Position numbers and translations under genes: made by a program | Notes under the pieces: model-generated | The model's database searches: none | Seen by the model: the letters and a program-made list of their open reading frames with translations, nothing else | Told to the model about the DNA's origin: nothing | Assembly (NCBI RefSeq): GCF_010104355.1 | Contig: NZ_CP044972.1 | Coordinates: 1,116,001-1,180,000 of the forward strand | Origin: Hydrogenophaga sp. PBL-H3 | Lineage (GTDB): Bacteria; Pseudomonadota; Gammaproteobacteria; Burkholderiales; Burkholderiaceae_C | Direction of reading: 5' to 3' | DNA: 64,000 nucleotides | Shown here: positions 6,236 through 41,778 of the stretch, piece after piece | How the letters are laid out: each line of letters begins with the position of its first letter | Numbering within the stretch: position 1 is the stretch's first letter

Positions 6236-6291
6236 GTGCATGCCTCTTAAGGAATACGCGACCAGAGCCAAGTTACCCAGGATCGCATTTG

Positions 6292-17178: not shown

Positions 17179-17222
17179 TGCGGAGTTCTAGACAAGAACC
17201 TTGGGGAACATGTCCCCAATAG

Positions 17223-18002: not shown

Positions 18003-18008
18003 GTCGGC

Positions 18009-18989: not shown

Positions 18990-19035
18990 AGGTGTCTCCG
19001 GTGCTGTCTGTCGTGGGGTGGAAAAGTGAAGTCGC

Positions 19036-20310: not shown

Positions 20311-20401
20311 AGTCAGGTTTCCAAAATTGATCGACATGTCCACTGCATGACATTACAGTCCATTTTACGGATCGATTGAGCTCTGTCAAGTTTTGAATAG
20401 T

Positions 20402-25890: not shown

Positions 25891-26925
25891 TCAGGCAGCG
25901 GATTTTTCCGCAACCAGCAACCGATCGATGATGCGGCGGGCTTGCACGCCACCGCCATCGATGTTCAGGCTCAGTAGCTTGCGCCCGGCGTTGCGCTCCA
26001 GGTTCTGCTGCTGCATCTCCAGCATCTGGAGGTCCTCGGAGAAAACCTTGCTCAGGCTGGTGCGGATCTGCTCGCTCAACGCCTGGTCCTGCGCATTGAA
26101 GTTCCTGGCCATGCCCCAAAAGTACCAGGTCGAGGACTCGGTTTCAGGTGTGATGAAGTCGATGACTGTGCTGGAGGCTTTGACCTTGGGGTCTGCATTG
26201 AAGCCGCCCTTGCCCGCGTGCGCCACACCCACATCGATCAGCACATGGCTTGGCGGATAGAAGCGGCAGATTTGCCACCGGTCCACTGGAACATCGTCTG
26301 CCAGGTTGTTTCCGCGCAAGCCCGCACGCCAGAATGGCGGCGCCATGATGCCTTCCATGTAACGCTCGGTGATGGCGCAGTCTCCATCCATCCGCGTCTT
26401 GGGCGGCGACTCATCGATTTCCTTTTGACCAATTGAGTTCGGGTGCAAGTAAGTCTCGTGAGTCAGGTCCATGAGGTTGTCGATCATGAGCCGGTAATCG
26501 CATTTGACGTGGTACAGCCCACCGCTGTAGGCCCACTCGGGGTCATCGGCCCAGGCCAGATGGTGGATCTTGGAGGGGTCGGCCTCTTGCGCATCGCCAG
26601 GCCAGACCCAGATGAACCCGTAGCGCTCCACTACGGGATACGTCCGCACGGCGGGGAAGCCGCCCACGCGTTGGCATGGCATGGCAACCGTCTTGCCATC
26701 GCAACCCATCTCCAGACCGTGGTAGCCACAAACCAGTTTGCCGTTTTCAACCTTGCCCAGCGACAACGGAGCACCGCGGTGGGGGCAAAAGTCTTCGACA
26801 GCGGCCACCTTGTTGTCGGGGCCACGGAAAAACACGATGGACTCGCCGCAAATCTTGCGGCCAAGGGGCTTTCCATCGAGTTCGCTGGGCGTAGCGCCTA
26901 CATACCACGTGTTTTTGGGAAACAT
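25891..26925 (-). CDS. vanA: Vanillate O-demethylase oxygenase-type Rieske protein
   Basis: A 344-residue Rieske oxygenase closely resembling VanA: it opens MFPKNTWYVGATPSELDGKP, has Rieske ligands C47-P-H49 and C66-G-Y-H69, and the segments WAYSGGLYHVKCDYRLMIDN, LMDLTHETYLH and APPFWRAGLRGNNLADDVPV. VanA with a VanB reductase demethylates vanillate to protocatechuate and formaldehyde. No vanB is adjacent; IphD or OphA1 may supply electrons. It is inside an operon with an ALDH, an SDR, a TRAP receptor and a Liv importer, so a related methoxy-aromatic is also possible. Confidence 0.82.
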   Translation of the reverse strand: MFPKNTWYVGATPSELDGKPLGRKICGESIVFFRGPDNKVAAVEDFCPHRGAPLSLGKVENGKLVCGYHGLEMGCDGKTVAMPCQRVGGFPAVRTYPVVERYGFIWVWPGDAQEADPSKIHHLAWADDPEWAYSGGLYHVKCDYRLMIDNLMDLTHETYLHPNSIGQKEIDESPPKTRMDGDCAITERYMEGIMAPPFWRAGLRGNNLADDVPVDRWQICRFYPPSHVLIDVGVAHAGKGGFNADPKVKASSTVIDFITPETESSTWYFWGMARNFNAQDQALSEQIRTSLSKVFSEDLQMLEMQQQNLERNAGRKLLSLNIDGGGVQARRIIDRLLVAEKSAA

Positions 26926-26973
26926 GATTCGTTCTCTCCTATAAGTACTAAGGATTCGGGCAGGCTTGTGGAG

Positions 26974-28452
26974 TCAGCCCTTGGGTGGATCAAGCACACC
27001 TACGTTCTGATAGATGTGTTTGATCTCGGTGAAATCGATCAACGCGTCAAAGCCGTGGAGACGGCCCAAGCCACTGCGGCGATAGCCGCCGGTCTCCGCT
27101 TCAGCGCACAGCTTGTTGTGGTCGTTGATCCAAACGGTGCCGTTGCGCAGCGCTCGAGCGATACGCCAGGCGCGCGCGCCCTGCTCGGTCCAGACACTCG
27201 CGGACAACCCGAACTCGGTGTGATTGGCCCGCGCCACCGCTTCGGTTTCGGTTTCAAACTTTTCCAGCACGACCAAGGGGCCGAAAATCTCCTCTTGGAC
27301 AAAAGATGCACTGGCATCCCGGTGCGCGACCAAGGTGGGCGAGACAAACCCGCCAAGCCGCAGGTTTCCGCCGAGACGCTGACCGCGCAGGATCACTTCG
27401 TCTGCGTCGTCCATCGCCTGCTCGATGCGACGTTGCACCAACTCAGTGGTAGAGAGATCGATCAAGGGACCCATCTGGGCGCCCGGGGTATTTCCGGGCG
27501 CCACTTTGATTGCCGCCAGTGCACTGGCCAGCGCTTTTTTCATCGCCTCATAGCGTGACGCGTGAACCAACACCCGGCGCGCCGCCGTGCATTGCTGACC
27601 AGAGATGACCGTCGCAGCGGCAGCCAGTTGAGGCGCGATGTGGTCGATATCGGCATCTTCAAAAACCAGGCAGCATGACTTGCCACCCAGTTCGAGCGAC
27701 AGTTTCTTCATAGTGGGAGCAGCGGCGGCCATGATGCGCTGCCCCGTCAGGTTGGAGCCCGTGAAGCTGACCACATCCACCTCTGGCGAGGAGGTGAGCA
27801 ACTGCGCCACGTCGTGGCCTTGCTCACTCACCAGGTTCACCACACCGGGCGGCAGTCCAGTCACGTCGGCCAGTTCCCTGATCACCGCAGCGGTGATGAG
27901 TGCGGACTGCGGTGCAGGCTTGACCACGCAAGTACAGCCAGCGGCCAACGCGGGGGTGATCGACCGGATAAGCAGGATCACGGGAGCGTTCCAAGGGACG
28001 ATGATGCCGGCGACGCCGGCCGGCTCTTTCAGCATCGTGGAAAATACGCCGGGTTCCACCTCGAGCACGTGGCCTGGTATGTGCCGGGCCAGACCCGCGT
28101 AGTAACGGATCTCCGAGATGGCTCCCATCAGCTCACCCCGCGATTGCGCGATCACCTTGCCATTCTCTTGCGTTAGCAGTTGGGCCAGTGCTTCAGCCTT
28201 GTGCTCTAGCCGGCTTGCCCATTCGTTCATCACGTTCTGCCGCAGCCGCGGCGACTGGGCCCACGTGGGCTTTTCAAAGGCTCTGCGTGCAGCCGAAATG
28301 GCCGCCTCTGCGTCTGCCCGGGTGGCAGCGCTGAAGCAACCGATCTGGCTGCCGTTGGCCGGGTCCAGGCTGGGCACTTCGAGGCCCTGGCTGGCGGGCA
28401 TCCACCGGCCATCGATCAAGAGTTCTGCTGTGGCGTGCATAGGAGTGCTCAA
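26974..28452 (-). CDS. NAD(P)-dependent aldehyde dehydrogenase (aromatic aldehyde candidate)
   Basis: A 492-residue aldehyde dehydrogenase. IIVPWNAPVILLIRSITPAL, the glutamate in LELGGKS and the catalytic cysteine in SGQQCTA are present. It overlaps the SDR stop by 4 bp, so alcohol and aldehyde oxidation are coupled. Next to a VanA-type enzyme, a vanillyl alcohol-vanillin-vanillate sequence is a reasonable guess. An alternative ATG four codons in (MHATAEL) is possible. Confidence 0.82.
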   Translation of the reverse strand: MSTPMHATAELLIDGRWMPASQGLEVPSLDPANGSQIGCFSAATRADAEAAISAARRAFEKPTWAQSPRLRQNVMNEWASRLEHKAEALAQLLTQENGKVIAQSRGELMGAISEIRYYAGLARHIPGHVLEVEPGVFSTMLKEPAGVAGIIVPWNAPVILLIRSITPALAAGCTCVVKPAPQSALITAAVIRELADVTGLPPGVVNLVSEQGHDVAQLLTSSPEVDVVSFTGSNLTGQRIMAAAAPTMKKLSLELGGKSCCLVFEDADIDHIAPQLAAAATVISGQQCTAARRVLVHASRYEAMKKALASALAAIKVAPGNTPGAQMGPLIDLSTTELVQRRIEQAMDDADEVILRGQRLGGNLRLGGFVSPTLVAHRDASASFVQEEIFGPLVVLEKFETETEAVARANHTEFGLSASVWTEQGARAWRIARALRNGTVWINDHNKLCAEAETGGYRRSGLGRLHGFDALIDFTEIKHIYQNVGVLDPPKG

Positions 28453-29231
28453 TGTGTGACCGATCCGCCATCAACCACAATCACCTGACCGGTGACAAAG
28501 TCACTGTCGGCGCTGGCGAGGTAGATCAAGGTGCCGGTCAGGTCGTCGGGTACCTGATCACGCTTGATGCAGCGGGACGAAACGATGCCTGAAGCGATTG
28601 AGCCTTGCCAGTCGGGATTTGCGCTGACATTGGCGCTCAGGGTCAGGCCCGGCGCCAGTGTATTGACGCAGATATTGTCGTTACCCAATTCACGCGCCAG
28701 ACAGCGCGCCATCGCCACCACGGCGCCCTTGGAGGTGACGTAGTGCAGGAAGAGCGGCGTGCCCTTGAAAACCGTGCCGGAGGCGATGTTGATGATCTTG
28801 CCGTAGCGCTGCTGACGCATCACGGGGCTGACCGCTCTGGCGCACTCGAAGGAGCCGCGCACGTTGACGGACATCACCTTGTCCCACTCGGCCGACTCGA
28901 TCTGCTCGAACGGCTTGAGGGCAAGGTTGCCGAAAATTGCGGCGTTGTTGACCAGCACGTCAATGCGGCCGAACGCCTGAAGTGCGGACCCAACCATCTT
29001 CTCCACCGATTCGCGGGACGTCACGTCTGTGTGGACAAACACCGCCCGGCCACCCTTCTCAATGATCTGGTTGACCACCCCGGTGGCGTCCAGCACATCG
29101 GCACAGACCACGGAGGCACCTTCTTGAGCCAATGCACGAGCGTATGTCTCTCCGATACCTTGCGCCGCGCCGGTCACGATCGCAACCCGGTTGGCCAGCC
29201 GTGGGGTGTTTTCTTTGGGCAGTTGATTCAT
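28449..29231 (-). CDS. Short-chain dehydrogenase/reductase
   Basis: A 260-residue classical SDR: TGAAQGIG near 20-27, NNAAI near 97, IINIASGTVFKGTPLFLHYV with the Ser...Tyr...Lys triad (YVTSKGA), ending VVDGGSVTH. A clear paralogue of the SDR at 34490-35245; both share KGTP-x-x-LHYV and the RDQVP-[DE]-DL stretch. It lies 9 bp after the TRAP receptor gene and overlaps the ALDH start. Probably an aryl-alcohol dehydrogenase. Confidence 0.82.
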   Translation of the reverse strand: MNQLPKENTPRLANRVAIVTGAAQGIGETYARALAQEGASVVCADVLDATGVVNQIIEKGGRAVFVHTDVTSRESVEKMVGSALQAFGRIDVLVNNAAIFGNLALKPFEQIESAEWDKVMSVNVRGSFECARAVSPVMRQQRYGKIINIASGTVFKGTPLFLHYVTSKGAVVAMARCLARELGNDNICVNTLAPGLTLSANVSANPDWQGSIASGIVSSRCIKRDQVPDDLTGTLIYLASADSDFVTGQVIVVDGGSVTH

Positions 29232-29240
29232 GGAGTGTCT

Positions 29241-30293
29241 TTATGTCTTGGTAGTTTTTGTGTGCTTTTCGATCAAGGCCCGGGCTGTTGACAAAAGATC
29301 GCGACCATCGAAGCCGCGGCTCTCCATGTCCTTGACCCATTCGACCTCTACCTGGCTTGCTGCGCGCCTGAACTCTTGGGCTTCGACCTGCCCGAAGTTA
29401 TGGGTGACGTTGCCGCGTGCCTCCACCAACTTGCGGGCAGGGTCGTCGCCACATTGGTGGGCGCGCCCCAAGGACGCAGAAGCGGTTATGCCCGAGTTGG
29501 GGTCCAGCACCTTCCGGACATCTGGCGGCAGGGACTCGTACTTCCGTTTGTTTGTTGCCGTCACGAATGTCGTGGTGTAGAGCGCGCCACTGGCTGGATC
29601 GAACTGACTGTGAAACTTCGTTAATTCGTGCACCTTTACGGAGGGAACGACATCCCAAGGGATCACGCAACCGTCGAGAGGCCCCTTTTGCAGTGCGTCG
29701 GGAATCTTGGGCAGCGGCATGCCCACAGCATTGGCGCCGAGGTATCCCAGCATCTTCGTAGTTTGTCTGGTTGGACCGCGAATTTTCAGGCCGCGCAAGT
29801 CGTACGGAGCCTCAAAGAGGCGGTCGCGGGTGTGGAGCATCCCCGGCCTATGAACCTGCACTGCAATGGGATGCACTTCCTTGTGTTCGTTGGACGCTTT
29901 TGTCTTGATGAACTCCCAGAAAGCCTTGGAAGTAGCCTCGGCGTTGGTCGTCATGAACGGCAGGACAAACACCTCGCTGCAAGGAAAGCCTCCAGGTGAA
30001 TAGCCGGTCAGTGTCCAAACGATGTCAGCCACGCCATCCCGTGCCTGGTCGTATGGCTGCACAGGCGCGCCATCAAGCTGCATCGCGGGGTACGCCTCAA
30101 ACCGGATGCGCCCATCTGATTCCCGTTGCACCTTTTCCATCCATACCTTGTTCATGCTGACCCATACGTTGGACATGGGAGATATGAAAGTGTGAAATCG
30201 CAAAGTGATCGACTGCTGAGCAAAGCCTGTCAGCGAGGGAGCGCCCAAGGCCATCCCTACTGCCAACTGAACGATGGTTCTGCGGTTGATCAT
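29241..30293 (-). CDS. TRAP transporter DctP-type solute receptor
   Basis: A 350-residue periplasmic receptor. Start MINRRTIVQLAVGMALGAPS gives a signal peptide ending TGFAQQS; the longer frame upstream has no signal. DctP motifs: LRFHTFISPMSNVW, GRIRFEAYPAMQLDG, and LKIRGPTRQTTKML with the arginine that binds the ligand carboxylate. Paralogue of 31899-32951. No DctQ/DctM membrane genes are present. It is first in the operon that runs on to livF. Confidence 0.82.
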   Translation of the reverse strand: MINRRTIVQLAVGMALGAPSLTGFAQQSITLRFHTFISPMSNVWVSMNKVWMEKVQRESDGRIRFEAYPAMQLDGAPVQPYDQARDGVADIVWTLTGYSPGGFPCSEVFVLPFMTTNAEATSKAFWEFIKTKASNEHKEVHPIAVQVHRPGMLHTRDRLFEAPYDLRGLKIRGPTRQTTKMLGYLGANAVGMPLPKIPDALQKGPLDGCVIPWDVVPSVKVHELTKFHSQFDPASGALYTTTFVTATNKRKYESLPPDVRKVLDPNSGITASASLGRAHQCGDDPARKLVEARGNVTHNFGQVEAQEFRRAASQVEVEWVKDMESRGFDGRDLLSTARALIEKHTKTTKT

Positions 30294-30573
30294 TTGGTGA
30301 ATTGAGGAGAAGGCGTGAGTACCTAGGAAGTGAGACTTGATCCAGTCCGCAATCCGAATTGTCCGTCTGGTGATTATGTTGTACATTCTACGGTTATGTT
30401 CACTCCACGAAATCAGGGTAAACACTGGGGGCGTCGTGAGCGGTTACCTAAATGACCTTCGATGTTGTTAGGCTGGGTCGGCACGAAACATCCGGCGCTA
30501 TCGCCAAATCCACAAGATCACGACGAGAACCGCAAGGACCGAGTCCTCATGTGCGCCACAGCCAAGCACCAGC
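30294..30573. other. Upstream region of the TRAP-SDR-ALDH-vanA-liv operon
   Basis: About 280 bp that should hold the promoter of the long operon running to 21.2 kb. I see a TTGTACA element near 30380 but no strong paired operator, and no regulator gene is adjacent. The IstB fragment follows. Confidence 0.35.
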
Positions 30574-30906
30574 GTGCAGGCCGTGGGATGTGTGGAGTCC
30601 TCGGACCTGCTCGTGCTAGATGACCAGTCTCTGGCCCGGCGCATCGCCGACATCAGCGACGAACTCCTCTATGCCATCGTTCACCAGCGCTACAACCTGC
30701 GCCGCGCCATCGTCATCACCTCAAATCTTTTGGTGCAGGACCTGAGCAAGTACCTGGCCGACGTCACCATGGCCACCACCATCCTTGATCGACTGATACA
30801 CCGCTGCTCGACGCTGGGGTTCGAAGGCAAGAGCTACCGTCTGAAGCAGTCCGCCTCACGAATCGCGATCGCACCCGAACAGTCGGAATTCGAACGACTT
30901 TGTTAG
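30574..30906 (+). pseudogene. IS21-family istB (helper ATPase) C-terminal fragment
   Basis: The frame holds the back half of an IstB-type AAA+ protein: SSDLLVLDDQSLARRIAD (Walker B), HQRYNLRRAIVITSNLLVQD, then TMATTILDRLIHRC and LGFEGKSYRLKQSA. The Walker A part and the istA transposase are missing. It lies between the two large minus-strand operons, marking a junction. Confidence 0.7.
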
Positions 30907-30951
30907 CGCAGTTTGGGTTGACCATAGGAGGAGACTGTCAAATTTAAGAAG

Positions 30952-31902
30952 TCACTCGCTCAGCGTGGAGTTCAGCAGGTAAATCGTGCGAAGCAAGGCC
31001 TCGGGACTGGCAATTCCCTTGCCGGCGATGTCCATGGCACTTCCATGCCCGACACTGGACAGCACGACGTTGCCTCCCACGCTGAGGGCACTTGCGGCGT
31101 GGGGCGCCAGCAACTTGATTGGAATGTGACCCTGGTCGTGGAAGACGGCCACATAGAGATCGTGCTGCCTGTTTGCCAACAGCGTGTCTGCGCCTGTGGG
31201 CCCACTGACATGGTGGCCTGCTGAGCGCAGCTGCGCCACCGCAGGCACCATCAAGCGAGCGTCCTCCGGTCCGAAAAGCTCACCTTCGGATGCGTGTGGA
31301 TTGATACCGAACATGCCGATGCGAGGCGTTTCCACGCCCAGCCGCTGACACGCGACGATGCCTGCCTGAGTGGCGCGCACGATCAGGTCGGTGCTCAGAC
31401 GATCAAGTGCTGTTTGAACGCTCTCGTGGAGCGTGACGTGCACGATGCGTAAGCCCGCCCCCACCAGCATCAAGAAAACGGAGTCGGCAGATTGGCCGCA
31501 CACACGCGCCACAAGAGAGGGGTACCCGCTGAACGCTATACCTGCCTGCGTGATCGCTGTCTCGTGGTGAGGACAGGCGATCACGGCGTCGAACTCGCCA
31601 GCCTGCGCAGCCTGAATGGCCGCCGTAGCGCTGGCCACCGACGAGGCGCCAGCGGCCGCGTCGATGCGACCAGGTACAGCTGCAGCCGGATCGAGGGCGC
31701 CTACCTCGTTGCAACGAACACCATCTAGCATCCCGCTAAGGTTCAATTGCTCGGCGCAGCGGCGCAGCACCGAATTCGGGCCGAACAGCGTAATACGGTC
31801 GCGCTCAGACTCTGTCAGAGTGGCAAGTGCCTTTAGCGTGATCTCCGGTCCGATGCCGTTCGGATCGCCGATCGAGATGGCCAGGCGCGCAAGGCCGCTC
31901 AT
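30952..31902 (-). CDS. tphB: TphB-type terephthalate dihydrodiol dehydrogenase (PdxA family)
   Basis: A 316-residue PdxA-family dehydrogenase. Hallmarks: [13 protein letters not shown] at the start, [44 protein letters not shown], and [18 protein letters not shown]. These match TphB (1,2-dihydroxy-3,5-cyclohexadiene-1,4-dicarboxylate dehydrogenase) more than the vitamin B6 enzyme. It would oxidise and decarboxylate the terephthalate dihydrodiol to protocatechuate. It is the last gene of the tph operon, overlapping the TRAP receptor gene by ATGA and eight genes away from the dioxygenase genes. Confidence 0.85.
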
Positions 31903-32951
31903 GCAGCCTTTGGTTTATGTTTGGCAATGAGCGCCTTTGCGCCAGCCAAGAGCTTGGCACCGTCCTGCCCGCGCTTGTCCATCTCCTGGACCCATTCGCT
32001 GGCGATGGTGCCAGTCAGTTTGACAAACTCGCTGGTTTCCGATTCGCTGAACACGTGTACCTTGTTGCCTCGATCGGTCGCCATCTTGCGACTGATGGGG
32101 TCATGATCTTGTTGCACCTTGCCGAACCAAGCCGAGGTTTCCAGGCCCGAGTTGTCGTCGATCACCTTTTTGATATCCGGAGGCAACGATGTATATTTTC
32201 TTTTGTTCATCACCATCACAAACGCCGTGTTGTAAAGAGCTGGCTTGCCGGGCGCGAACTCGCTGTGGTGCTGAACAAGCTCATGCACCTTGACCGAAGG
32301 AATCACTTCCCAAGGCAAGGCTGCGCCGTCAATGACGCCTTTGGACAGCGCGTCTGGAATCTGTGGCAGCGGCATGCCTACCGCGGATGCTCCTGCTGCT
32401 GCGAGCAACTTAGTCGCTTGGCGGGTCGGCCCTCGCATCTTCAGGCCGCGCAGGTCGGAAGCGCTGTTGATGGCCTTGCTTTTCGAGTGCAGCACTCCTG
32501 GACCATGGGTATGAAAAGCGAGTGGTTGGACGTCCTTGAACTCATCGCTGGCGTGGGTTTCGAGGTACTCCCAGGCGGCACGCGACGCTCCGATGCCGTC
32601 CATGGTCATGAACGGCAGTTCGAACACTTCGGTCCGAGGGAATCGACCGGGGGTAAGTCCAGCCAAAGTCCATACGATATCGACAACACCATCCCGTGCC
32701 TGGTCGAAAAGTTGACTTGGTGAGCCCCCCAGCTGCATGGCAGGAAAGCCCTCGAAGCGGATACGTCCGCCCGAGTCGTTCTCCACTTTCGACATCCATG
32801 CCTTGTGTGCATTGAGATAGACATTCGAGGTCGGCGCCATGAAGGTATGGAACTTCAGGGTTACCACTTGCTGGGCGAAGACGCCAAGGGTGGGGGCTCC
32901 AAGGGAAGCGGCTGCCGCCGCCGATTTGATGAGGGTTCTGCGTTGCATCAT
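31899..32951 (-). CDS. TRAP transporter DctP-type solute receptor of the tph operon
   Basis: A 350-residue DctP-type receptor with signal peptide [20 protein letters not shown] ending GVFAQQ. Motifs [30 protein letters not shown] and [14 protein letters not shown] are shared with the receptor at 29241-30293. Usual tph clusters carry a TTT receptor (TphC); here a TRAP receptor takes that place and no DctQM subunits follow. Overlaps tphB. Ligand inferred to be terephthalate or p-toluate. Confidence 0.82.
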
Positions 32952-33026
32952 GAGGTTGTCTCCTGGATTGAAGGGAAAGGCGGGTCCGGCCCCCCGGGCG
33001 GTGCTGGCTTCTTGTAGTACTGGTGA

Positions 33027-34475
33027 TCAAGCAGGGCTTGCCTGCGAAACGAATTTAGTGACGAGGTAGCCGTCGAAGGTTTCGCTGCCGCCTTCGCTGC
33101 CGATGCCGCTGTCCTTCACGCCACCGAACGGCGTCTCGGCCAGCGTGATGCCGAAATGGTTCACGTTGACCATGCCCACCTCGAGGCCGTTGACCATGCG
33201 CTCCGAGGTCTTGATGGAGCCGGTGAAAACGAAACCGGTGAGGCCGAAGGGCAGGGCGTTGGCGCGCTTCAATACCTCGTCGGTGTCCTTGAAGCGCGTG
33301 ATCGGCGCGACCGGACCGAAGGGTTCTTCGACCATCAGGCGCGCGTCGTCGGGAATGTCGGTGAGGATGGTGGGCGGGTAGAAGTAGCCAGGGCCAGCGA
33401 GCCGCGTGCCGCCGCTGGCCAGCTTCGCGCCACGCTCCAGCGCATCGGCCACCAAGCCTTCCATGGCATCGACCCTGCGCAGGTGCGCCAGGGGGCCCAT
33501 CTGCGTGTCCTTGTCCATGCCGTCGCCCACCTTCAAGCCACCGTAGGCTTTCGTGAAGGTGTCGAGAAAGCGGTCGTACACCTTCTCCTGCACGAAGAAG
33601 CGGCTGGGTGCAATGCACAGCTGCCCCGCGTTGCGCGCCTTGAAACGCGCCAGCAGATGGGCCGCGTCGTCCACGTCGGCGTCGTCGAACACCACCACCG
33701 GCGAGTGCCCGCCCAGCTCCATGCTGATGCGCTTCATGTGCAGGCCGGCGAGCGACGCCAGCTGCTTGCCCACCGGCACCGAGCCGGTGAACGATACCTT
33801 GCGCGAGATCGGCGAGCGGATCAGGTGGTCCGACACCTCGGCCGGCACACCCCACACCACGTTGAGCACGCCCGGGGGCAGACCCGCGTCGTGGAACATG
33901 CGCGCGAGCGCGATCACCGCGCCCGGCGAATCCTCTGGCCCCTTCAGCACAAGCGTGCAACCCGCGCCGATCGCCGCCACCATCTTGCGGATGGCCTGGT
34001 TAAACGGAAAGTTCCAGGGCGTGAAGGCCACGCACACGCCCACGGGCTCGCGCAGCACCAGCTGGCGCACGTGGGGCAGGCGTGCGGGGATCACGCGGCC
34101 ATAGATGCGGCGGCATTCTTCGGCGTGCCACTCTGCGTGTTCGGCACAGGTGGTCACCTCCAGCAGCGCCTCGCTCAGCGGCTTGCCCTGGTCGAGAGTG
34201 ATCTGGCGGGCGATCTGCGGTGCGCGTTCGCGCGTGAGCTCGGCCACGCGGCGCAGCACCTTCGAGCGCTCGAGCGGCGAACTCTTGCGCCAGCTCTCGA
34301 AGGCGCGTTGCGCCGCGTTCAGTGCGCGGTCAAGGTCGTCGCGGCGCGCGTGCGGCAGCGAGCCGATCACCTCGCCGTTGGCGGGGTTGATGATGTCCTG
34401 GTGTTGGCGGTCGCCGCCTTCGATGAATTCGCCATCGATGTAGAGGAAAGGCTTGCCGTATGCGGTGTCGGTCAT
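33027..34475 (-). CDS. Aldehyde dehydrogenase of the tph/P450 operon
   Basis: A 482-residue NAD(P)-dependent aldehyde dehydrogenase with full domains: VAFTPWNFPFNQAIRKMVAA, glutamate in MELGGHS and nucleophile in NAGQLCIAPSRF. It follows the SDR by 14 bp. In the proposed route it would oxidise 4-carboxybenzaldehyde (4-formylbenzoate) to terephthalate. By sequence alone it could be a general semialdehyde dehydrogenase of the GabD type. From here to tphA2 the DNA is visibly more GC-rich than the two genes downstream. Confidence 0.82.
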   Translation of the reverse strand: MTDTAYGKPFLYIDGEFIEGGDRQHQDIINPANGEVIGSLPHARRDDLDRALNAAQRAFESWRKSSPLERSKVLRRVAELTRERAPQIARQITLDQGKPLSEALLEVTTCAEHAEWHAEECRRIYGRVIPARLPHVRQLVLREPVGVCVAFTPWNFPFNQAIRKMVAAIGAGCTLVLKGPEDSPGAVIALARMFHDAGLPPGVLNVVWGVPAEVSDHLIRSPISRKVSFTGSVPVGKQLASLAGLHMKRISMELGGHSPVVVFDDADVDDAAHLLARFKARNAGQLCIAPSRFFVQEKVYDRFLDTFTKAYGGLKVGDGMDKDTQMGPLAHLRRVDAMEGLVADALERGAKLASGGTRLAGPGYFYPPTILTDIPDDARLMVEEPFGPVAPITRFKDTDEVLKRANALPFGLTGFVFTGSIKTSERMVNGLEVGMVNVNHFGITLAETPFGGVKDSGIGSEGGSETFDGYLVTKFVSQASPA

Positions 34476-34489
34476 GGTGAGTCAACCGA

Positions 34490-35245
34490 TCAGATGAATA
34501 CCGAGCCACCGTCGACGGCGATGGTCTGGCCGGTGATGAAGCCCGCGCCGTCGCTGGCTAGGAAGAGCAGGGCGCCCACCAGGTCTTCAGGCACCTGGTC
34601 GCGCTGCAGCGAGCGGCTGGTCTTGCGCACCACGTCGCCCATCTTGCTGTGCAGGTCGTTGTCGAGCACACCGTCGCTCAGCGTGAAGCCCGGGGCAATG
34701 GCGTTGACGGTGATGTCGTCCTTGCCGAGTTCGCGGGCTAGCGAGCGCGTGAACGCGATCACCGCGCCCTTGCTGGCCACGTAGTGCAGCATGTTGGGCG
34801 TGCCCTTGATCGGCGTGGTGGACGCGATGTTCACGATGCGGCCGAACCCGTTCTTGCGCATTTCGGGCACGACCGCTTTGGCGCACACGAAAGGCCCCAG
34901 GGTGTTGACCTCCATCACCCGCATCCACTCGGCGTCGCTGATCTGGTCGAACGGTTTGAGCGTGAGCGTGGTGAACAGGCCGGCGTTGTTCACCAGCACG
35001 TCGAGCCGGCCGAACGCCTTCACGGCCTGTTCGACCATGCCCGCCACGTCGGCGGGCTTGACCACATCGGTCTGCGTGCCGATGGCCTTCAGGCCCTGGG
35101 CACTGAGGCGTTCGGCCGCTTCGACGGCACCGCGCAGGTCGGCGATGACGACCTGGTGGCCCGCGCGCGCGAGGGCTTCGGAGAAGGCGAAACCGATGCC
35201 GCTGGCGCCGCCAGTGACCGCGATGACCCGGGATGCTGCTGTCAT
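34490..35245 (-). CDS. SDR alcohol dehydrogenase of the tph/P450 operon
   Basis: A 251-residue classical SDR: TGGASGIGFAFS, NNAGL, IVNIASTTPIKGTPNMLHYV with YVASKGA, ending IAVDGGSVFI. Paralogue of the SDR at 28449-29231. Between a P450 redox system and an ALDH, the expected role is oxidation of an aryl-CH2OH to the aldehyde, here 4-hydroxymethylbenzoate. A dihydrodiol dehydrogenase role is less likely because tphB is in the same operon. Confidence 0.8.
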   Translation of the reverse strand: MTAASRVIAVTGGASGIGFAFSEALARAGHQVVIADLRGAVEAAERLSAQGLKAIGTQTDVVKPADVAGMVEQAVKAFGRLDVLVNNAGLFTTLTLKPFDQISDAEWMRVMEVNTLGPFVCAKAVVPEMRKNGFGRIVNIASTTPIKGTPNMLHYVASKGAVIAFTRSLARELGKDDITVNAIAPGFTLSDGVLDNDLHSKMGDVVRKTSRSLQRDQVPEDLVGALLFLASDGAGFITGQTIAVDGGSVFI

Positions 35246-35297
35246 GTGTTGTCTCTTTCTGTGGGAAGGTGTGGATGTCGAATGGGACTGAGGGAGC

Positions 35298-36473
35298 TCA
35301 GGTCGGTGCTAGCACCGGCGCGAGGGCCGTGCGCGCGCGCATGTGGGCGGCAGGGTCGTTGAGGGATTCGACGGCGCTGAGTTGATCGCCGCGGTAGCGC
35401 AGCACCGAAAAGCGGCCGCTGGCCGGATCGCCCTCGATGTCGCTGCGGTCGCCCGGCGCGGCCAGGCCGGCCATCTGCAGCCGGCAAGGGCCTTGCTCGC
35501 TCCAGAACCAGGGCACCTTGGCGTACGGCAGGGGTTGACCGCACAGGCGCGCGGCGATGCAGCGCGCCTGGTCAACGGCGTTCTGTACCGACTCGATGCG
35601 CACGCGGGAGCCGCCATCGGCCGCGAACGGAAAGTTCGCGCAGTCGCCGAGCGCGGAGATGGCGGCGTCGCTGGTGAGCAGCAGCTCGTCGACCTCGATG
35701 CCATTGCCCACCGCCAGCCCGGCGTCGCGCGCCAGCTGGTCGTTGGGCGTGACGCCTACCGCGATCACGATGAGGTCGGCGACGATGCGGCCACCGCCGT
35801 GCAGGCGCAGGCCGGTGGCGCGGCCGTCCTCGCCTTCGATGGCGTCGAGCTGCGTGTTCAGGTGGAATTGCGTGCCCTGGGCTTCGTGGAAGGCTTGCAG
35901 GTGTCGCGCCATGGGCTCGGAGAGGGCGCGCAGCAGGGGCCGTGCCGTGGCCTCGATCACCTGCATCGGCAGGCCCTGGCCGCGCGCCACGGCCGCGAGT
36001 TCCAAGCCAATGAAGCCGGCGCCGACCACGGCCACCGAGCGCGCGCGGGCCAGTTGCTCTCGGATGCGCCGCGCGTCCTCCAGACCGCGCAGCACGTGCA
36101 CGCCGGACAACCCCGCTCCGGGCACGCACAGGGTGCGCGCGGTCGCGCCGGTGGCCAGCACCAGGTGGTCGTAGGGCAGGGTCTGGCCGCTGGAGAGGTG
36201 CACGCCACGCGCCGCGCGGTCGATGCGCGCCACGCGCGTGCCGCCGAGCACGCGGGCATCGATGCGCTGGTAGAACGGGGGCGGGCGCAGCAGCAGGCCG
36301 GTGTCGTCCACCTTGCCTTGAAGGAAGGCCTTGGACAGCGGGGGGCGCTGGTAAGGCAGGCCGGGCTCGTCGCCGACCAGGGTGATGGGATCGGCATAAC
36401 CCGAATCGCGCAGCGAGGCCGCGAGCTGGAAGCCGCCCTGCCCGGTGCCGACGATGACGGTGCCGTGGGCCAT
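35298..36473 (-). CDS. FAD-dependent ferredoxin reductase (P450 redox partner)
   Basis: A 391-residue putidaredoxin-reductase-type flavoprotein. FAD-binding motif VIVGTGQGGFQLA at 6-18, NAD-binding VAVVGAGFIGLELA, and the FAD-binding ALGDCANF are present. Its start overlaps the ferredoxin stop by one base (TGATG); the longer frame upstream lies inside the ferredoxin gene. It moves electrons from NADH to the adjacent ferredoxin for the P450. Confidence 0.85.
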   Translation of the reverse strand: MAHGTVIVGTGQGGFQLAASLRDSGYADPITLVGDEPGLPYQRPPLSKAFLQGKVDDTGLLLRPPPFYQRIDARVLGGTRVARIDRAARGVHLSSGQTLPYDHLVLATGATARTLCVPGAGLSGVHVLRGLEDARRIREQLARARSVAVVGAGFIGLELAAVARGQGLPMQVIEATARPLLRALSEPMARHLQAFHEAQGTQFHLNTQLDAIEGEDGRATGLRLHGGGRIVADLIVIAVGVTPNDQLARDAGLAVGNGIEVDELLLTSDAAISALGDCANFPFAADGGSRVRIESVQNAVDQARCIAARLCGQPLPYAKVPWFWSEQGPCRLQMAGLAAPGDRSDIEGDPASGRFSVLRYRGDQLSAVESLNDPAAHMRARTALAPVLAPT

Positions 36474-36796
36474 CAGACCTGCCGCTCCGGGATGTGCATG
36501 ATCAGTTGGTCCACGCCGGGCGCCAGCGCGAGCTGGCAGCCCAACCGGCTGTGTTCGCGGCGCTCGCCCGCGGCGCTGGCCAGCATTTCGTCCTCGACGT
36601 CGCTGATGGGCGGCAGGAAGCCGATCGAGGCCGGGTCCACGTACACGTGGCAGGTGGCGCACATGGCGGAGCCGCCGCACTCGGCGACGATGCCGGGAAT
36701 GCCGTGGCCGACAGCGGTCATCATGACGGTAGCGCCGGGACTGGCGGGCACGGCTTCTCGGGAGCCGTCGGGTTGTACGTAGACGATCTGGGGCAT
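36473..36796 (-). CDS. [2Fe-2S] ferredoxin, putidaredoxin type
   Basis: A 107-residue vertebrate-type [2Fe-2S] ferredoxin. Cluster cysteines at 40, 46, 49 and 87 (C-x5-C-x2-C...C; CGGSAMCATCHVYVDP). Length and spacing match the ferredoxins partnered with CYP199 and P450cam. Translationally coupled to the reductase; follows the P450 by 38 bp. The ATG at 36796 opens MPQIVYVQPDGS. Confidence 0.85.
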   Translation of the reverse strand: MPQIVYVQPDGSREAVPASPGATVMMTAVGHGIPGIVAECGGSAMCATCHVYVDPASIGFLPPISDVEDEMLASAAGERREHSRLGCQLALAPGVDQLIMHIPERQV

Positions 36797-36834
36797 CGTG
36801 GGTTTCTCTCTTCTAGTTCGAATGGGGCGGGATG

Positions 36835-38055
36835 TCAGTGCACGGCGGCCAGCAGCGGCTCGACCGTCACGGGCATGCTCTTGAGCCCGCGCACCGTGTT
36901 GTTGAAGTGCTGGACCGGTTCGCCGTCGAGGCGGATCGAGGCCACGCGGCGGGCCAGTGCGGTGAGCACGATCTCGCCTTCGAGGCGCGCCATCATCTGG
37001 CCGGCGCAGCCGTGAATGCCCGTGCCGAAGGCCATGTGGCCGGTGGCGCGGCGGGTGATGTCGAAGCGGTCGGCTTCGGGCCAGCGGCGCGGGTCGCGGT
37101 TGGCCGAGGCGATGAACACCACGATCTTCTGGCCCTGCTTCACGGTGATGCCGCCGAGTTCCACGTCCTGGGTGCTGGTGCGGTAGAAAGAGTGGAAGGT
37201 GCTGTCGTAGCGCAGTACCTCTTCGAGTGCCTGGCGCGCCAGCGAGGGGTCGTCGCGCAGCAGGGCCCATTGACCGGGGTTGCGCGCGAAGCTGGTGAAG
37301 GCGTTGCACAGGGTGAACACGGTGGTGTCCAGCCCGGCGGAGAGCAGGGTGCGAACCAGCATGCCGGCCTCGTCGTGGCCTATCTCGCCCGCGTCGGCGG
37401 CGGCGAACAGCTGGGCGCCCAGGCCGTCGGGCGTGAGCGCGTCGCGCTGGCAGACCTTGGCGATCCAGTTCACCGCTTCGCCCGAGCTGTTCATTCGGTC
37501 TTGGAAACGCTCGTTGATCGGGCCGAATCCATTGAACACCATGTCACCGTAGGGCAGCAGGTGCTCGCGCCCCTCGGCGGGCAGGCCCACCGCGTCGCCG
37601 AAGGCCTTGATGGGAAAGGCCTCGCACAGTTCTTTGGCGGCGTCGAACGAGCCGCGTTCCACGAGCTCGTCGACCATGCGCGCGGCCACGTCCTCGAAAG
37701 TGGCGCGCAGGCGTCCGATCGATGCGGGCGAGAGCACGCGCGCCACCACCTTGCGGGTGCGGCTGTGGTGGGGCGGGTCTGCTTCGAGAATGATGCTGGG
37801 CTTGCGCCAGGGCGTCTCGGTGTGGAAGTTGGTAAGGCCCACGCCCGCGCTGGAACAGAAGATGTCGGGCTGAGACAGGATGCGCTGCACTTCGTCGTGG
37901 CGTGCGACCGCAAGCACGCCGTAGCGCTCCAGCCAGGCCCAGGGGCCGAGTTCGCGCAGCTGCTCGTAGTGGGGATAGGGGTTGGCCAGCACCTCGGTGG
38001 CGTACGGGTCGAAGTCGCTGGTGGGAACGTTGTCGTAGGGGTTGGGATGGGTCAT
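36835..38055 (-). CDS. Cytochrome P450, CYP199-like (para-substituted benzoate oxidation)
   Basis: A 406-residue soluble bacterial P450. Heme ligand C350 in FGTGIHGCAGQ (343-353), ExxR in EEVLR (278-282), I-helix AGLDTT (240-245). FCSSAGVGL, ETPWRKPSIILEADPPHH, VRTLLSAGLDTT and FNNTVRGLKSMPV resemble CYP199A enzymes, whose PWR-x-PS and R-S-LLSAGLDTT segments hold the carboxylate of para-substituted benzoates; here the second has T for S. CYP199A members demethylate 4-methoxybenzoate and hydroxylate the methyl of 4-methylbenzoate. Embedded in a tph operon between tphA1 and its own ferredoxin and reductase, p-toluate oxidation is favoured; anisate or veratrate demethylation is the alternative. 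Confidence 0.82.
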   Translation of the reverse strand: MTHPNPYDNVPTSDFDPYATEVLANPYPHYEQLRELGPWAWLERYGVLAVARHDEVQRILSQPDIFCSSAGVGLTNFHTETPWRKPSIILEADPPHHSRTRKVVARVLSPASIGRLRATFEDVAARMVDELVERGSFDAAKELCEAFPIKAFGDAVGLPAEGREHLLPYGDMVFNGFGPINERFQDRMNSSGEAVNWIAKVCQRDALTPDGLGAQLFAAADAGEIGHDEAGMLVRTLLSAGLDTTVFTLCNAFTSFARNPGQWALLRDDPSLARQALEEVLRYDSTFHSFYRTSTQDVELGGITVKQGQKIVVFIASANRDPRRWPEADRFDITRRATGHMAFGTGIHGCAGQMMARLEGEIVLTALARRVASIRLDGEPVQHFNNTVRGLKSMPVTVEPLLAAVH

Positions 38056-38080
38056 GGAATGGCTCTTCTTCGGGTGTGCT

Positions 38081-39115
38081 TCAGTCGGTCAGCGCGGAGG
38101 TGCGGGGCTGGGCCACCACGAACGCGTCGCAGAAGAACGCATCGGGCGGCAGGCCGCGGGTTTCGACGAAATCGCTGCGCGCCGCGCTCACCATGGCAGG
38201 CGCGCCGCAGGCGTAGACCTGGTGGCCGGCAAGACTGTCGTGGTCTTGCAGCACGGCCTGGTGCACGAAGCCGGTGCGACCGCTCCAGCCGGCCTCGGGT
38301 TCGGAGATCACGGGCACGAAGCGCAGGCCGGCCTGCTCTCCCCAGCCGCGCGCCAGGTCGAGCAGGTACAGGTCCTTCTCGGTGCGCGCGCCCCAGTAGA
38401 GTGCGATCTCGCGTGCCTGGCCCCGGCGCAGGCCGTCCTCGACCATCGACTTGATGGGTGCGAAGCCGGTGCCGCTGGCGAGCATCACGATGGGCGCGGT
38501 GCTGCCCTCGCGCAGGTGAAAGTCGCCATGCGGCAGTTCGACCCGGAGGTGGTCACCCACCTTGAGGTCGTGCGCGAGCCAATGCGAGAACGCGCCGCCT
38601 TCCAGCATGCGGATATGCAGCTCGGCGCCATCGTTCTGGTGCGGCGGGTTGGCCATGGAGAAGCTGCGGCGCTGGCCGTCGGGCAGCAGCACCTGCAGGT
38701 ACTGGCCGGCCTTGAACTTCACCTTCTCGCCCGCCGGAAAACGCAGCTTGAGGCGCGCCACGTCGCTGGCCAGAAAGTCGATGCGCATGACCCTGGCGGC
38801 GAGCTGGCGGCGCGCGTTCGGATCGGTTTTCTCGATCTGGCGCGGTTCGATCTCGATGTCGGTGAGCGGGCGCGCCTGGCAGAACAGCACCTGTCCGTGC
38901 GCGATCTCGTCCGCCGTGAGCGTGTGCTCACCCGCCGCGCCGGGGTTCACCCGGCCCGAGACGACGCGGCCCTTGCAGCTCGCGCACACGCCCGAGTTGC
39001 ACGAGAACGGCATCTCGTAGCCGGCCTGTCGCACTGCGTCGAGCACTGTCTGACCAGCGGCGCAGGGGATGGCGGTGGCCATCCCGGCGATGCGTATGAG
39101 GTGCGGGGTGCTCAC
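38081..39115 (-). CDS. tphA1: Terephthalate 1,2-dioxygenase reductase component
   Basis: A 344-residue reductase with the ferredoxin domain at the N-terminus, the TphA1/BenC order and opposite to OphA1 and IphD. Cluster cysteines 39, 44, 47 and 79; flavin motif RRSFSMANPP; nicotinamide motif ASGTGFAPIKS. The start is GTG at 39115 (reads MSTPHLIRIAG), 7 bp after the tphA3 stop; further upstream codons fall in tphA3. It supplies electrons to TphA2A3. Confidence 0.82.
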   Translation of the reverse strand: MSTPHLIRIAGMATAIPCAAGQTVLDAVRQAGYEMPFSCNSGVCASCKGRVVSGRVNPGAAGEHTLTADEIAHGQVLFCQARPLTDIEIEPRQIEKTDPNARRQLAARVMRIDFLASDVARLKLRFPAGEKVKFKAGQYLQVLLPDGQRRSFSMANPPHQNDGAELHIRMLEGGAFSHWLAHDLKVGDHLRVELPHGDFHLREGSTAPIVMLASGTGFAPIKSMVEDGLRRGQAREIALYWGARTEKDLYLLDLARGWGEQAGLRFVPVISEPEAGWSGRTGFVHQAVLQDHDSLAGHQVYACGAPAMVSAARSDFVETRGLPPDAFFCDAFVVAQPRTSALTD

Positions 39116-39122
39116 GGCTTGC

Positions 39123-39599
39123 TCACAGGGGAATGGCCAGCAGCGTGTCGATGTTGTGGCTGTCGCAGACCACCACACGGCTGGCCAGGCGCAGGGTATC
39201 GCCTCCATCGATCACCAGCTCGTCGAGGTAGCGCCCGGTGGCGAAGAGGCTGGTCTCGCCGCCACGCATGATGCGCACCACCACAAACGGGGTTTCGCTG
39301 CGGCGCCCGCGCGGCGTGTCCTCCAGCAGGGAGGGCAGGCCCACCAGGTGGCGGTAACGTTGTTTCTCGTAGACGTTGGCGGTGCGCAGTGAGAGCACGC
39401 GGTCGTTGAGCATGGCGCGCGAGTCGGCGTAGATCAGGCTGGCTTCCATGCCTTGCGCATGGTTGTCGGCGGTGGTCACGCGGTAGAGGCAGTGTTCGGT
39501 GAAGAGCTGCGTCCAGGCTTCGAGCTCGTCGTTGTCGATGCAGCGCGCACAGTGCGCGTTGAGCGCCAACGCGCCCGTGGTGTCGATGGCCACGCTCAT
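39123..39599 (-). CDS. tphA3: Terephthalate 1,2-dioxygenase small (beta) subunit
   Basis: A 158-residue ring-hydroxylating dioxygenase beta subunit: [37 protein letters not shown] and [13 protein letters not shown] follow the TphA3 pattern, ending [15 protein letters not shown]. Its start overlaps the tphA2 stop by ATGA. It is structural, holding the alpha3beta3 oxygenase together. Confidence 0.85.
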
Positions 39600-40855
39600 G
39601 AATCCGCCCCCATGTGGAAGCGGTAGGCCTTCCAGAAGCCGCGCACCGAGGCTTCCGTGGTGCGGCTGCTCTGCGAGCGCACGCTGTCGCCGCCCATCTC
39701 GACGATGGCTTCCTGCGCGCCAGCGGAGGCAATGCCGCGTTGCACAAAGCCGCCCACAGCGCCGTCCTCCATCGATACGAAGCCGGCCGGCCCGATCAGG
39801 TTGGACTGCTTGTGGCGCATGGTGCGCAGCTCGGGTGTGTCGTCCTGGAAGCCGAGGTACACCCAGTTCAGGGCGGTGGTCTCCAGGCCTTCGGGCAGCA
39901 CCTGGCGTACCGCGATGGTGTTCTGTATCTGCGCCAGCACGAAGCCCGGAAATACCGAGAGGATCTGCAGCGTCACGCCATCGCCGAACTCGTCTATTCC
40001 TTTCAACAGCGTGGCGTCCTCGAGCTTGAAGTCGTCCTTCTCCGAACGCAGTTCCTCGGTCTTGTAGTCCTCGCCATTTTCGGCGATGGGGTCGATGGCG
40101 GAGAAGCTGATGTGGTTGCCGCCACATTCGCTCACCACCACGCCGCCCTTCTGCGAAAGGCGGTTGAGCCGGAACGTGGTGAAGAACACGTGCAGCAGGC
40201 TCGCGTGGTACGTGTCGCGCACGTTCTCCACGTAGAGCTTCCAGTTGTTGGGCAGCGTCTGCTTGAAGCGGCCGAGGATCTGCACCGGCTTGTGCAGCAC
40301 GCGCGAGATGCCGCGCGCGATTTCCGGGCCGAGGTAGTCCTCCAGGTCGGGCACGTCGTCGCTCAGGCTGCCAAATACCAGGCCACAAAACACACTCGTT
40401 CTCAATTTGCGCGGACCATGACTCTTCATGCAGAAAGCAGGGTCCATGCCGCCTTCTCCGTTTACGCCGTTCTGGAACGCGATGCCCTTGAGGTTGCCCT
40501 GGCGGTCATAACGCCATGCGTGGTACACGCACTGGAAGTCACGCGCGGTGCCGCCGTCGTCCAGGACGATCAGTGCGCCGCGGTGCGAGCAGCGGTTCTC
40601 GAACGCGTACACCTCGCCGTCGCTGTCGCGCGCCACCACCACCGGCATGCGGCCGAGGAACGTCGTGCGGTAGCCGCCGGGTTGTGGCAACTCGGCTTCG
40701 AGACACAGGTAGTTCCAGGTCGCGCCTTCGAAGATGCGCTGTTGCTCGGCGTCGAGCACGGCCGGTTCCTGGTACAGGTGGTATGGCACGCGGGTGAGGT
40801 TCCCAGGTGGCCAGAAGGTGAGGGGTGCGTTATTCGCAGGGGCGGTGACGCTCAT
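39596..40855 (-). CDS. tphA2: Terephthalate 1,2-dioxygenase large (alpha) subunit
   Basis: A 419-residue Rieske oxygenase alpha subunit. Rieske ligands C89-S-H91 and C109-V-Y-H112; iron-binding [14 protein letters not shown] with H217 and H222. Segments [53 protein letters not shown] and [20 protein letters not shown] follow TphA2 closely. It forms the cis-1,2-dihydrodiol of terephthalate. The start MSVTAPANN at 40855 is chosen; the extra upstream codons run through the operator region. First gene of a ten-gene operon ending at tphB. Confidence 0.9.
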
Positions 40856-40883
40856 GATGCAGTGGGGTTCTTGCCTTGGAAGA

Positions 40884-40898
40884 ATTCGGATAACGAAC
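40884..40898. promoter_or_regulatory. IclR-type operator copy A of the tph promoter region
   Basis: ATTCG-GATAA-CGAAC has the NTTCG-N5-CGAAC form with one arm mismatch. It lies 29 bp upstream of tphA2. A matching site is found 69 bp further on, nearer tphR. Confidence 0.5.
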
Positions 40899-40966
40899 TT
40901 TTGACCGTTTGGTGAACCGCGACTGTATTTTTTGAGTTGATGAAGGTCAACAAAATCCGGCAAAAT

Positions 40967-40981
40967 GTTCGAATACCGAAC
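40967..40981. promoter_or_regulatory. IclR-type operator copy B of the tph promoter region
   Basis: GTTCG-AATAC-CGAAC is a perfect 5-bp-arm inverted repeat with a 5-bp spacer, 26 bp upstream of the IclR gene start. The form matches PcaU/PobR/PcaR-class IclR sites. Two sites in one divergent region suggest one for activation of tphA2 and one for autoregulation. Confidence 0.6.
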
Positions 40982-41007
40982 TTATTCAACTTCGAGTGGG
41001 GCCGCAA

Positions 41008-41778
41008 ATGGACGATGAAGCGCGTGCAGTTGACAAGGAATACGTCATGGGTCTGGAGAAGGGCCTACTCCTGATCGAGGCCTTCGGCGTCAGCAATTCG
41101 CCTCTGACGCTGACTGAAGCGGCCGATATCACAGGCCACAGCAAGGCCTCGACTCGCCGCGCCCTGCTTACCCTCGTCAAGCTAGGCTACGCGCGAGCAT
41201 CGGGGCGGCATTTTTTTCTCGAGCCGCGCACCTTGCGGCTGGTGCACGCCTACGTGAACTCTACGCCCCTGACCAAGGTGGCGCAGCCCATCCTGGAGAT
41301 CACGAGTGAGCGCACGCGCGAGTCCGCGTCGCTGGCGGTGCTGGACTCGCAGTTTGTCGTTTTCGTTGCACGTTCAACTCAGCGGCGCAGCTTGTCTTTC
41401 GGTCTCGGTATCGGCGCGCGATTGCCCGCCTATTGTTCTGCAACCGGGCGAGTGCTTCTCGCGGGTATGTCAGACGAGGAGGTTGAATTCCGCCTTGAGC
41501 GAATGAGTCGCCAGGCGATTACGCCGAAAACAAAGACTGACGTGGCGGCACTGATGAAGGAGGTGCAGGCTGCGCGCGAGTGCGGTTATTCGATGAGTGA
41601 CGAAGAGCTGGAAATTGGCTTGCGTTCCATTGCCGTGCCGGTGCGCAATGGAAAGGGTGAGTTGCTGGGGGCTATGAGTCTTTCCGTGGCCACTTCGCGC
41701 ATGTCACGCGACGATGTCGTGAACAAGTTGATGCCAGAACTTGAAGTGGCACGAAGGACGTTTGCACTGCAGTTGTAG
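41008..41778 (+). CDS. tphR: IclR-family regulator of the tph operon
   Basis: A 256-residue IclR protein: winged helix GLEKGLLLIEAFGVSNSPLT and GHSKASTRRALLTLVKLGY, effector domain SFGLGIGARLPAYCSATGRV and GYSMSDEELEIGLRSIAVPV. The latter part is of the PcaR/PobR/TphR kind. ATG at 41008 follows GAGTGGGG; a GTG 12 bp upstream is the alternative. Divergent from tphA2 with two operator-like repeats between. In Comamonas TphR activates tph genes in response to terephthalate; the same is inferred here. Confidence 0.8.
   Translation: MDDEARAVDKEYVMGLEKGLLLIEAFGVSNSPLTLTEAADITGHSKASTRRALLTLVKLGYARASGRHFFLEPRTLRLVHAYVNSTPLTKVAQPILEITSERTRESASLAVLDSQFVVFVARSTQRRSLSFGLGIGARLPAYCSATGRVLLAGMSDEEVEFRLERMSRQAITPKTKTDVAALMKEVQAARECGYSMSDEELEIGLRSIAVPVRNGKGELLGAMSLSVATSRMSRDDVVNKLMPELEVARRTFALQL

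Follow-up and report, generated by a model that had tools for sequence, protein, structure and literature searches.

In Comamonas testosteroni, the TsaMBCD system converts 4-methylbenzoate (p-toluate) to terephthalate through methyl hydroxylation, a short-chain dehydrogenase/reductase (SDR, TsaC) and an aldehyde dehydrogenase (ALDH, TsaD) (PMC10579966). Terephthalate in turn is the substrate of tph loci, canonically arranged as tphA2-A3-B-A1 with an IclR-type regulator gene, which is divergent in most of them. A third point of comparison is the CYP199A group of cytochrome P450s, of which CYP199A2, A4, A25, A35 and PbdA O-demethylate p-methoxybenzoate or veratrate (PMC11530827). Here we describe a predicted operon from a 64,000-nt stretch (the window) of the 4.8-Mb genome of Hydrogenophaga sp. 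PBL-H3, in which a CYP199-type P450, its redox partners, an SDR and an ALDH lie among tph genes. We put a probability of roughly 80% on the reading that this operon would serve p-toluate catabolism via terephthalate, with the P450, SDR and ALDH doing the job of TsaMBCD.

The operon consists of ten intact genes, all on the minus strand from 40855 to 30952, in the order tphA2-tphA3-tphA1-P450-ferredoxin-reductase-SDR-ALDH-DctP-tphB (Table 1), as an earlier reading of the letters without database searches (the sequence-only reading) had given them. Its description of tight spacing also held, with intergenic gaps in transcription order of -4, 7, 25, 38, -1, 52, 14, 75 and -4 bp, the negative values marking 4-bp overlaps at tphA2/tphA3 and DctP/tphB and a 1-bp overlap at ferredoxin/reductase. 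A consensus scan of 30400-41200 returned a single promoter-like site on the operon strand, ahead of tphA2. It also returned a single terminator-like site on the operon strand, which falls within the reductase gene and compares with 7.1 expected in shuffles. The ten genes would probably form a single transcription unit.

Like TsaMBCD, the operon includes an SDR and an ALDH carrying the motifs of their families. Unlike TsaMBCD as presented in PMC10579966, where the first step belongs to a Rieske oxygenase with its reductase, it pairs a P450 with a ferredoxin and a reductase, and its genes are in or next to tph. No TsaM-type Rieske first enzyme is encoded in the operon, whose sole Rieske protein is TphA2; the proposal that a P450 stands in for the Rieske enzyme is consistent with this gene content, in which the P450 is the candidate for the first step. 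The ALDH was also considered as a possible TsaD orthologue; its closest solved relative is 5vbf (Table 1). With canonical tph loci the window shares TphA2, TphA3, TphB and TphA1, and it differs from them in its P450, SDR and ALDH set, which is absent from 31 of 33 fetched loci. The other two come from module genomes (defined below), one with the P450 set about 6 kb upstream (L171, Ottowia) and one with a broken P450 (L183, Piscinibacter).

To place this gene set among other genomes, contigs were scanned with a five-sequence CYP199 alignment and the best 80 loci were kept (more distant ones exist), gene context being read in fetched stretches with flanks of up to 10 kb, shorter at contig ends. 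Among these 80 loci the identity to the window P450 drops from 62% to 56%, and the drop coincides with a sharp shift in gene context; we call the 22 loci whose P450 reaches 62% identity or more module loci, and the 58 whose P450 stays at or below 56% distant loci. The SDR (threshold at least 60%, observed 68-100%) is present in 21 of the 22 module loci and in none of the 58 distant ones, the ALDH (at least 60%) in 15 versus none, and tphA2 (at least 50%) in 17 versus none, although many loci are related, so that these counts are not independent and tree-based counts correct for this only partly. The ferredoxin, at a threshold of at least 50%, separates the groups less well (21/22 versus 15/58), and the IclR gene at 55% identity or more accompanies 15 of the module loci. 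Betaproteobacteria are represented among these by Hydrogenophaga, Noviherbaspirillum, Neopusillimonas, Ramlibacter, Ottowia, Piscinibacter and further Comamonadaceae, and Alphaproteobacteria by Celeribacter, Mesobacterium, Sphingomonas and one further member. The sequence-only reading had the P450, SDR and ALDH embedded within the tph unit; this is true of the window, but across genomes the conserved unit is P450-ferredoxin-SDR, often with the ALDH, and the position inside tph was seen in Hydrogenophaga alone.

The association was also followed at the level of whole genomes, for which 50 of the 80 loci were taken and 49 genomes remained after L129 was dropped (21 module genomes and 28 controls; L089 was left out of the count, being from the same genome as L087). 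TphA2 was found in 20 of the 21 module genomes and in 3 of the 28 controls (Fisher p = 1.2e-9, a value inflated by relatedness). In the lone module genome without it (L105) the contig stops about 0.4 kb before tphA3, and in one Ottowia locus (L099) tphA2 lies about 6 kb behind the ALDH gene. For the P450 itself, matches at E 1e-60 occur in 3 of 300 sampled genomes of the order, namely the window's own and two at 50% and 38%. Within the genus 12 of 67 genomes have a match, 11 of which hold a module-type P450 (at least 81% identity) in a total of 12 copies. The P450 also matched 62 records of a plasmid collection, none of which reached 60% identity, and the three records examined contained no tph genes.

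Some module loci depart from the full set. The reductase behind the ALDH is less similar (36-37%) in L095, L096 and L105 and was not found in L094 or L104. Among the loci without an orthologous ALDH, L103 has a different, unrelated ALDH behind tphA1, L092 has one at 37% behind tphA2, and the loci L102 and L106 are partial or broken. In Piscinibacter defluvii (L106/L183) a P450 of the module clade stands beside tph without an SDR and runs out of frame after about residue 347, through either decay or sequencing error; this loss of frame explains why the heme cysteine is missing from its alignment row. Outside the module loci, the SDR and ALDH near the P450 of a Rhodococcus locus (L012, P450 at 48%) reach only 33-34%. 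Separately, in L054 (G321:C177:50000-69999) a different CYP199 lineage (about 50%) with a ferredoxin and a reductase has a canonical tph locus a few kb away, and the SDR and ALDH are absent.

P450s that share at least 40% identity are placed in one CYP family. The window P450 is 52.3% identical to CYP199A2 by alignment and 48-52% identical to the entries for CYP199A2 and CYP199A4 (Rhodopseudomonas) and PbdA (Rhodococcus RHA1), and the 18 best Foldseek matches of its AlphaFold2 model (mean predicted local distance difference test score 90.5) are all CYP199A2, CYP199A4 or PbdA entries, with template modelling scores of 0.94-0.95. Both comparisons put the P450 inside CYP199 and uphold the earlier assignment, contrary to the sequence-level outcome that the sequence-only reading had named as refuting it. 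The phylogeny that it had suggested, built with CYP199A2 as the reference row, identical sequences collapsed, the broken L183 copy left out and the control L010 absent from the set, gathers the module P450s in a single clade of their own, separate from 26 others with support of 100/100. The ferredoxin, for which neither Pfam nor NCBIfam gave a match at E 0.001, carries Cys 40/46/49/87 and matches putidaredoxin-type ferredoxins in the PDB, best 4ltu, and the best PDB match of the reductase is 3fg2; we take 4ltu and 3fg2 to be the redox partners of the Rhodopseudomonas CYP199A system. With both partners adjoining the P450 gene, the class I P450 set is complete, a further likeness to the CYP199A2, CYP199A4 and PbdA systems, from which the window P450 differs in its linkage to an SDR, an ALDH and tph.

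The active site shows both a likeness to and a difference from these enzymes. In the description of the PbdA pocket given in PMC11530827, Arg84, Ser87 and Ser237 bind the substrate carboxylate, and Phe173, Phe176, Phe291, Ala241, Thr245 and Val288 line the pocket. By alignment, the window P450 keeps Arg84, Ser87, Ala241, Thr245 and Phe291, and has Thr for Ser237, the third carboxylate-binding residue, and Phe for Val288 (Phe173 and Phe176 were assigned via the FNxFGP motif; the numbering of the Rhodococcus guide row, L012, differs there). Arg84 and Ser87 are kept in all 25 clade members. Position 288 is Phe in 25/25 of these versus 0/67 other CYP199-type P450s, where 62 have Val, and position 237 is Thr in 25/25 versus 0/67, where 66 have Ser; among the 22 clade-specific positions listed, only these two are named PbdA pocket residues. 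The clade would seem to combine the acid anchor with an altered pocket, and a bulkier residue beside the para substituent would suit a group shorter than methoxy. Since CYP199A4 and PbdA hydroxylate p-ethylbenzoate at its para side chain (PMC11530827), benzylic hydroxylation is within the reach of the family.

The main rival explanation makes the P450 an O-demethylase of p-methoxybenzoate, as CYP199A4 and PbdA are, that yields 4-hydroxybenzoate and merely travels with tph in an aromatic-acid island. The conserved carboxylate anchor would fit this, as does the O-demethylation catalysed by CYP199A2, A4, A25, A35 and PbdA (PMC11530827). However, an O-demethylase needs neither an SDR nor tph, and the rival leaves unexplained why these partners are found in most module loci and in no distant CYP199 locus; both pocket positions, moreover, are altered throughout the clade. 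Three Hydrogenophaga genomes (G318, G321 and G340) hold the module P450 together with a second CYP199 lineage at 51-52%, near which no SDR or ALDH match was found, an arrangement that fits two separate jobs. We consider O-demethylation an improbable function for the window P450.

Between tphA2 and the IclR gene, the palindrome GTTCG-N5-CGAAC occurs twice, once exactly and once with a mismatch. A scan allowing at most one mismatch within 300 bp upstream recovered it ahead of tphA2 or the P450 gene in 18 of the 22 module loci. Across the 33 other tph loci (which include L171 and L183) it was upstream of tphA2 in none and upstream of the IclR gene in six, and the background in random 300-bp stretches of module loci was 146 of 4400, true sites included. 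In Noviherbaspirillum suwonense (L092), the P450 operon and a separate tph operon each have an exact copy in front of them. This distribution suggests joint regulation through an IclR-type protein, with the palindrome as putative operator. Together with the co-conservation of the P450, ferredoxin, SDR and often the ALDH with tph, the shared palindrome supports a single pathway and favours the predicted route from p-toluate to terephthalate.

On the terephthalate side, TphA2 keeps the metal ligands of the solved TphA2 7vju (63.9% identical), as well as N224, S243, R309 and R390, which are proposed as a mark of terephthalate dioxygenases in PMC9060491. These four residues are also complete in all 14 P450-linked rows and in all 40 other rows of at least 60% identity, so the motif does not separate P450-linked from other TphA2 proteins. 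The alpha, beta and reductase subunits and TphB are all encoded within the one locus, and tphB is 56-71% identical to the tphB of 32 other tph loci. Its place at the far end of the operon, which the sequence-only reading had pointed out, is indeed unusual, because in 31 of the 33 other tph loci tphB is flanked by tphA2A3 on one side and tphA1 on the other, all in one orientation (in L184 it is 3 kb off on the opposite strand, and in L197 it was not found). The far-end position recurs in 10 of the 11 other Hydrogenophaga loci with the module P450 (L042-L052; in L047 tphB was not found nearby) and in none of the loci from other genera.

Gene order varies further between genera. The tph genes precede the module in Hydrogenophaga, N. 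malthae, Celeribacter and Mesobacterium, the module precedes tph in Neopusillimonas, two Ramlibacter and two Comamonadaceae metagenome-assembled genomes and Piscinibacter, and the two are on opposite strands in N. suwonense and Sphingomonas. On a TphA2 tree, the P450-linked label requires seven changes, or nine if unlabelled rows are counted as not linked, five of these being forced by well-supported branches; the tree was built quickly and many of its branches are weak, and in it identical sequences were collapsed and L171 and L183 were labelled P450-linked. Judged by these comparisons, the P450 appears to be one lineage and its tph partners several, and with the varied gene order the association seems to have been re-formed. 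A chance abutment of two unrelated operons with no shared pathway, for which the IS21-type istB fragment beside the operon (30574-30906) could be cited as a sign of past mobile-element activity, is very improbable indeed: much the same set occurs in other genera, where gene orders and tph lineages differ, the genes within the operon are closely spaced or overlapping, and the palindrome is shared, even by the split operons of L092.

In the pathway that we propose, the reductase and the [2Fe-2S] ferredoxin would pass electrons from NAD(P)H to the P450, which would hydroxylate the para methyl group of p-toluate to give 4-(hydroxymethyl)benzoate. The SDR would oxidise this to 4-formylbenzoate and the ALDH would carry it on to terephthalate, from which TphA1A2A3 and TphB would form protocatechuate. 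Ring opening would fall to a protocatechuate 4,5-dioxygenase encoded elsewhere in the genome, where adjoining LigA and LigB genes are present. The DctP receptor is probably involved in uptake (none of the genome's 17 DctM matches is in the window), and control of the operon probably falls to the divergent IclR protein via GTTCG-N5-CGAAC. For a P450 tied together with an alcohol dehydrogenase, an aldehyde dehydrogenase and a terephthalate dioxygenase, the best explanation is that a para methyl group is oxidised to a carboxylate, taking p-toluate to terephthalate. As general background, CYP199A4 oxidises 4-methylbenzoate itself. It could be argued instead that the module oxidises another para-substituted benzoate or a sulfonate such as p-toluenesulfonate, with p-toluate a mere side substrate, given that TsaMBCD handles 4-methylbenzenesulfonate as well as 4-methylbenzoate (PMC10579966) and that CYP199A4 accepts several para substituents (PMC11530827). 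By reasoning, however, terephthalate, the substrate of the co-conserved TphA, results only from a carbon side chain oxidised through to a carboxylate, whereas a sulfonate would end as 4-sulfobenzoate and 4-(hydroxymethyl)benzoate needs no P450; we think such a substrate unlikely.

We would like to note several points that weigh against the p-toluate reading. The idea that the SDR is a TsaC orthologue was not supported: a structure of TsaC has been solved, yet it does not appear among the close solved relatives found for the SDR. An ALDH of at least 60% identity is absent from 7 of the 22 module loci, and TphA2 is also found in three control genomes. The palindrome was picked by eye from the window, a stretch that L085 and L086 nearly duplicate, and was not found in four module loci (L094, L104, L105 and L106). 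Finally, those CYP199A enzymes that have been characterised O-demethylate p-methoxybenzoate, and hydroxylation of p-ethylbenzoate by PbdA is not regarded as physiological by the authors of PMC11530827.

Table 1. Features of the predicted operon and its upstream region (window coordinates).
Feature	Coordinates	Strand	Basis or remark
IclR-type regulator (TphR-like)	41008..41778	+	Divergent from tphA2; Pfam IclR_C and HTH_IclR
Palindrome GTTCG-N5-CGAAC, exact; putative IclR operator	40967..40981		
Palindrome, second copy, one mismatch	40884..40898		
Sigma-70-like promoter match, between both palindromes	40922..40950	-	Consensus only
tphA2, terephthalate dioxygenase alpha subunit	39596..40855	-	Rieske and ring-hydroxylating alpha; 63.9% to 7vju
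tphA3, beta subunit	39123..39599	-	Pfam Ring_hydroxyl_B
tphA1, reductase, GTG start	38081..39115	-	Fer2, FAD_binding_6, NAD_binding_1
CYP199-type P450, proposed 4-methylbenzoate methyl-hydroxylase	36835..38055	-	Identity, clade, predicted fold
[2Fe-2S] ferredoxin, putidaredoxin type, 107 aa	36473..36796	-	PDB match 4ltu; Cys 40/46/49/87
Ferredoxin reductase, putidaredoxin-reductase type	35298..36473	-	PDB match 3fg2; Pyr_redox_2 and Reductase_C
SDR, proposed 4-(hydroxymethyl)benzoate dehydrogenase	34490..35245	-	adh_short; TGxxxGxG, NNAG and YxxxK motifs
ALDH, proposed 4-formylbenzoate dehydrogenase	33027..34475	-	Aldedh; closest solved relative 5vbf
DctP-type receptor of a tripartite ATP-independent periplasmic (TRAP) transporter, proposed aromatic acid uptake	31899..32951	-	Pfam DctP
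tphB, dihydrodiol dehydrogenase, PdxA family	30952..31902	-	Pfam PdxA; HDQGH motif

Other parts of the window contain further genes of aromatic-acid type. A cluster on the minus strand at 16207-20343 begins with a Rieske oxygenase matching isophthalate dioxygenase 9INA (426 residues, 921 bits), followed by a TctC receptor, an SDR and a reductase, the same order as in the described iphA2CBA1; with this cluster and the tph operon, pathways for terephthalate and for isophthalate both seem to be present in the window. Directly behind the operon, also on the minus strand, is a second set of DctP, SDR, ALDH and VanA-type Rieske genes (25891-30425), in which the SDR and the receptor share about 50% identity with their counterparts in module-type operons. 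The idea of a parallel m-toluate route formed by the VanA-type Rieske, ALDH and SDR genes at 25891-29231 beside the isophthalate cluster was dropped, since this Rieske gene, with hits at E 1e-70 in 106 of 250 family genomes, could be a widespread VanA-type enzyme. Between the operon and this next cluster, a fragment of an IS21-type IstB gene on the plus strand (30574-30906) is a sign of past mobile-element insertion. Genes for a LigXa-type Rieske oxygenase, an ALDH, a thiamine-diphosphate enzyme and a TctC receptor follow in a row on the minus strand at 4916-6271, 6367-7902, 7903-9954 and 9732-10733, perhaps another aromatic-acid cluster.

Taking the comparisons across genomes together, we lean, with modest confidence, towards a broader interpretation, in which a retooled CYP199 clade (Val to Phe and Ser to Thr, with ether cleavage giving way to methyl hydroxylation) would head a P450-based p-toluate module of Alpha- and Betaproteobacteria that has been repeatedly re-joined to different tph sets under one IclR-type operator, as a second, independent solution beside TsaMBCD. 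No report of a P450 route from p-toluate to terephthalate was found among the top-ranked papers listed in searches of open-access literature, a scope outside which most subscription papers fall, so this is weak evidence of novelty. If the interpretation is true, it would describe a natural P450 route into terephthalate metabolism and assign a physiological function beyond O-demethylation to one branch of the well-studied CYP199 enzymes, with two named residues as candidates for the functional switch. It would also provide a compact gene set for the treatment of p-xylene or terephthalate wastewater or for terephthalate production, and a CYP199 gene with an SDR beside tph genes should then suggest p-toluate catabolism.

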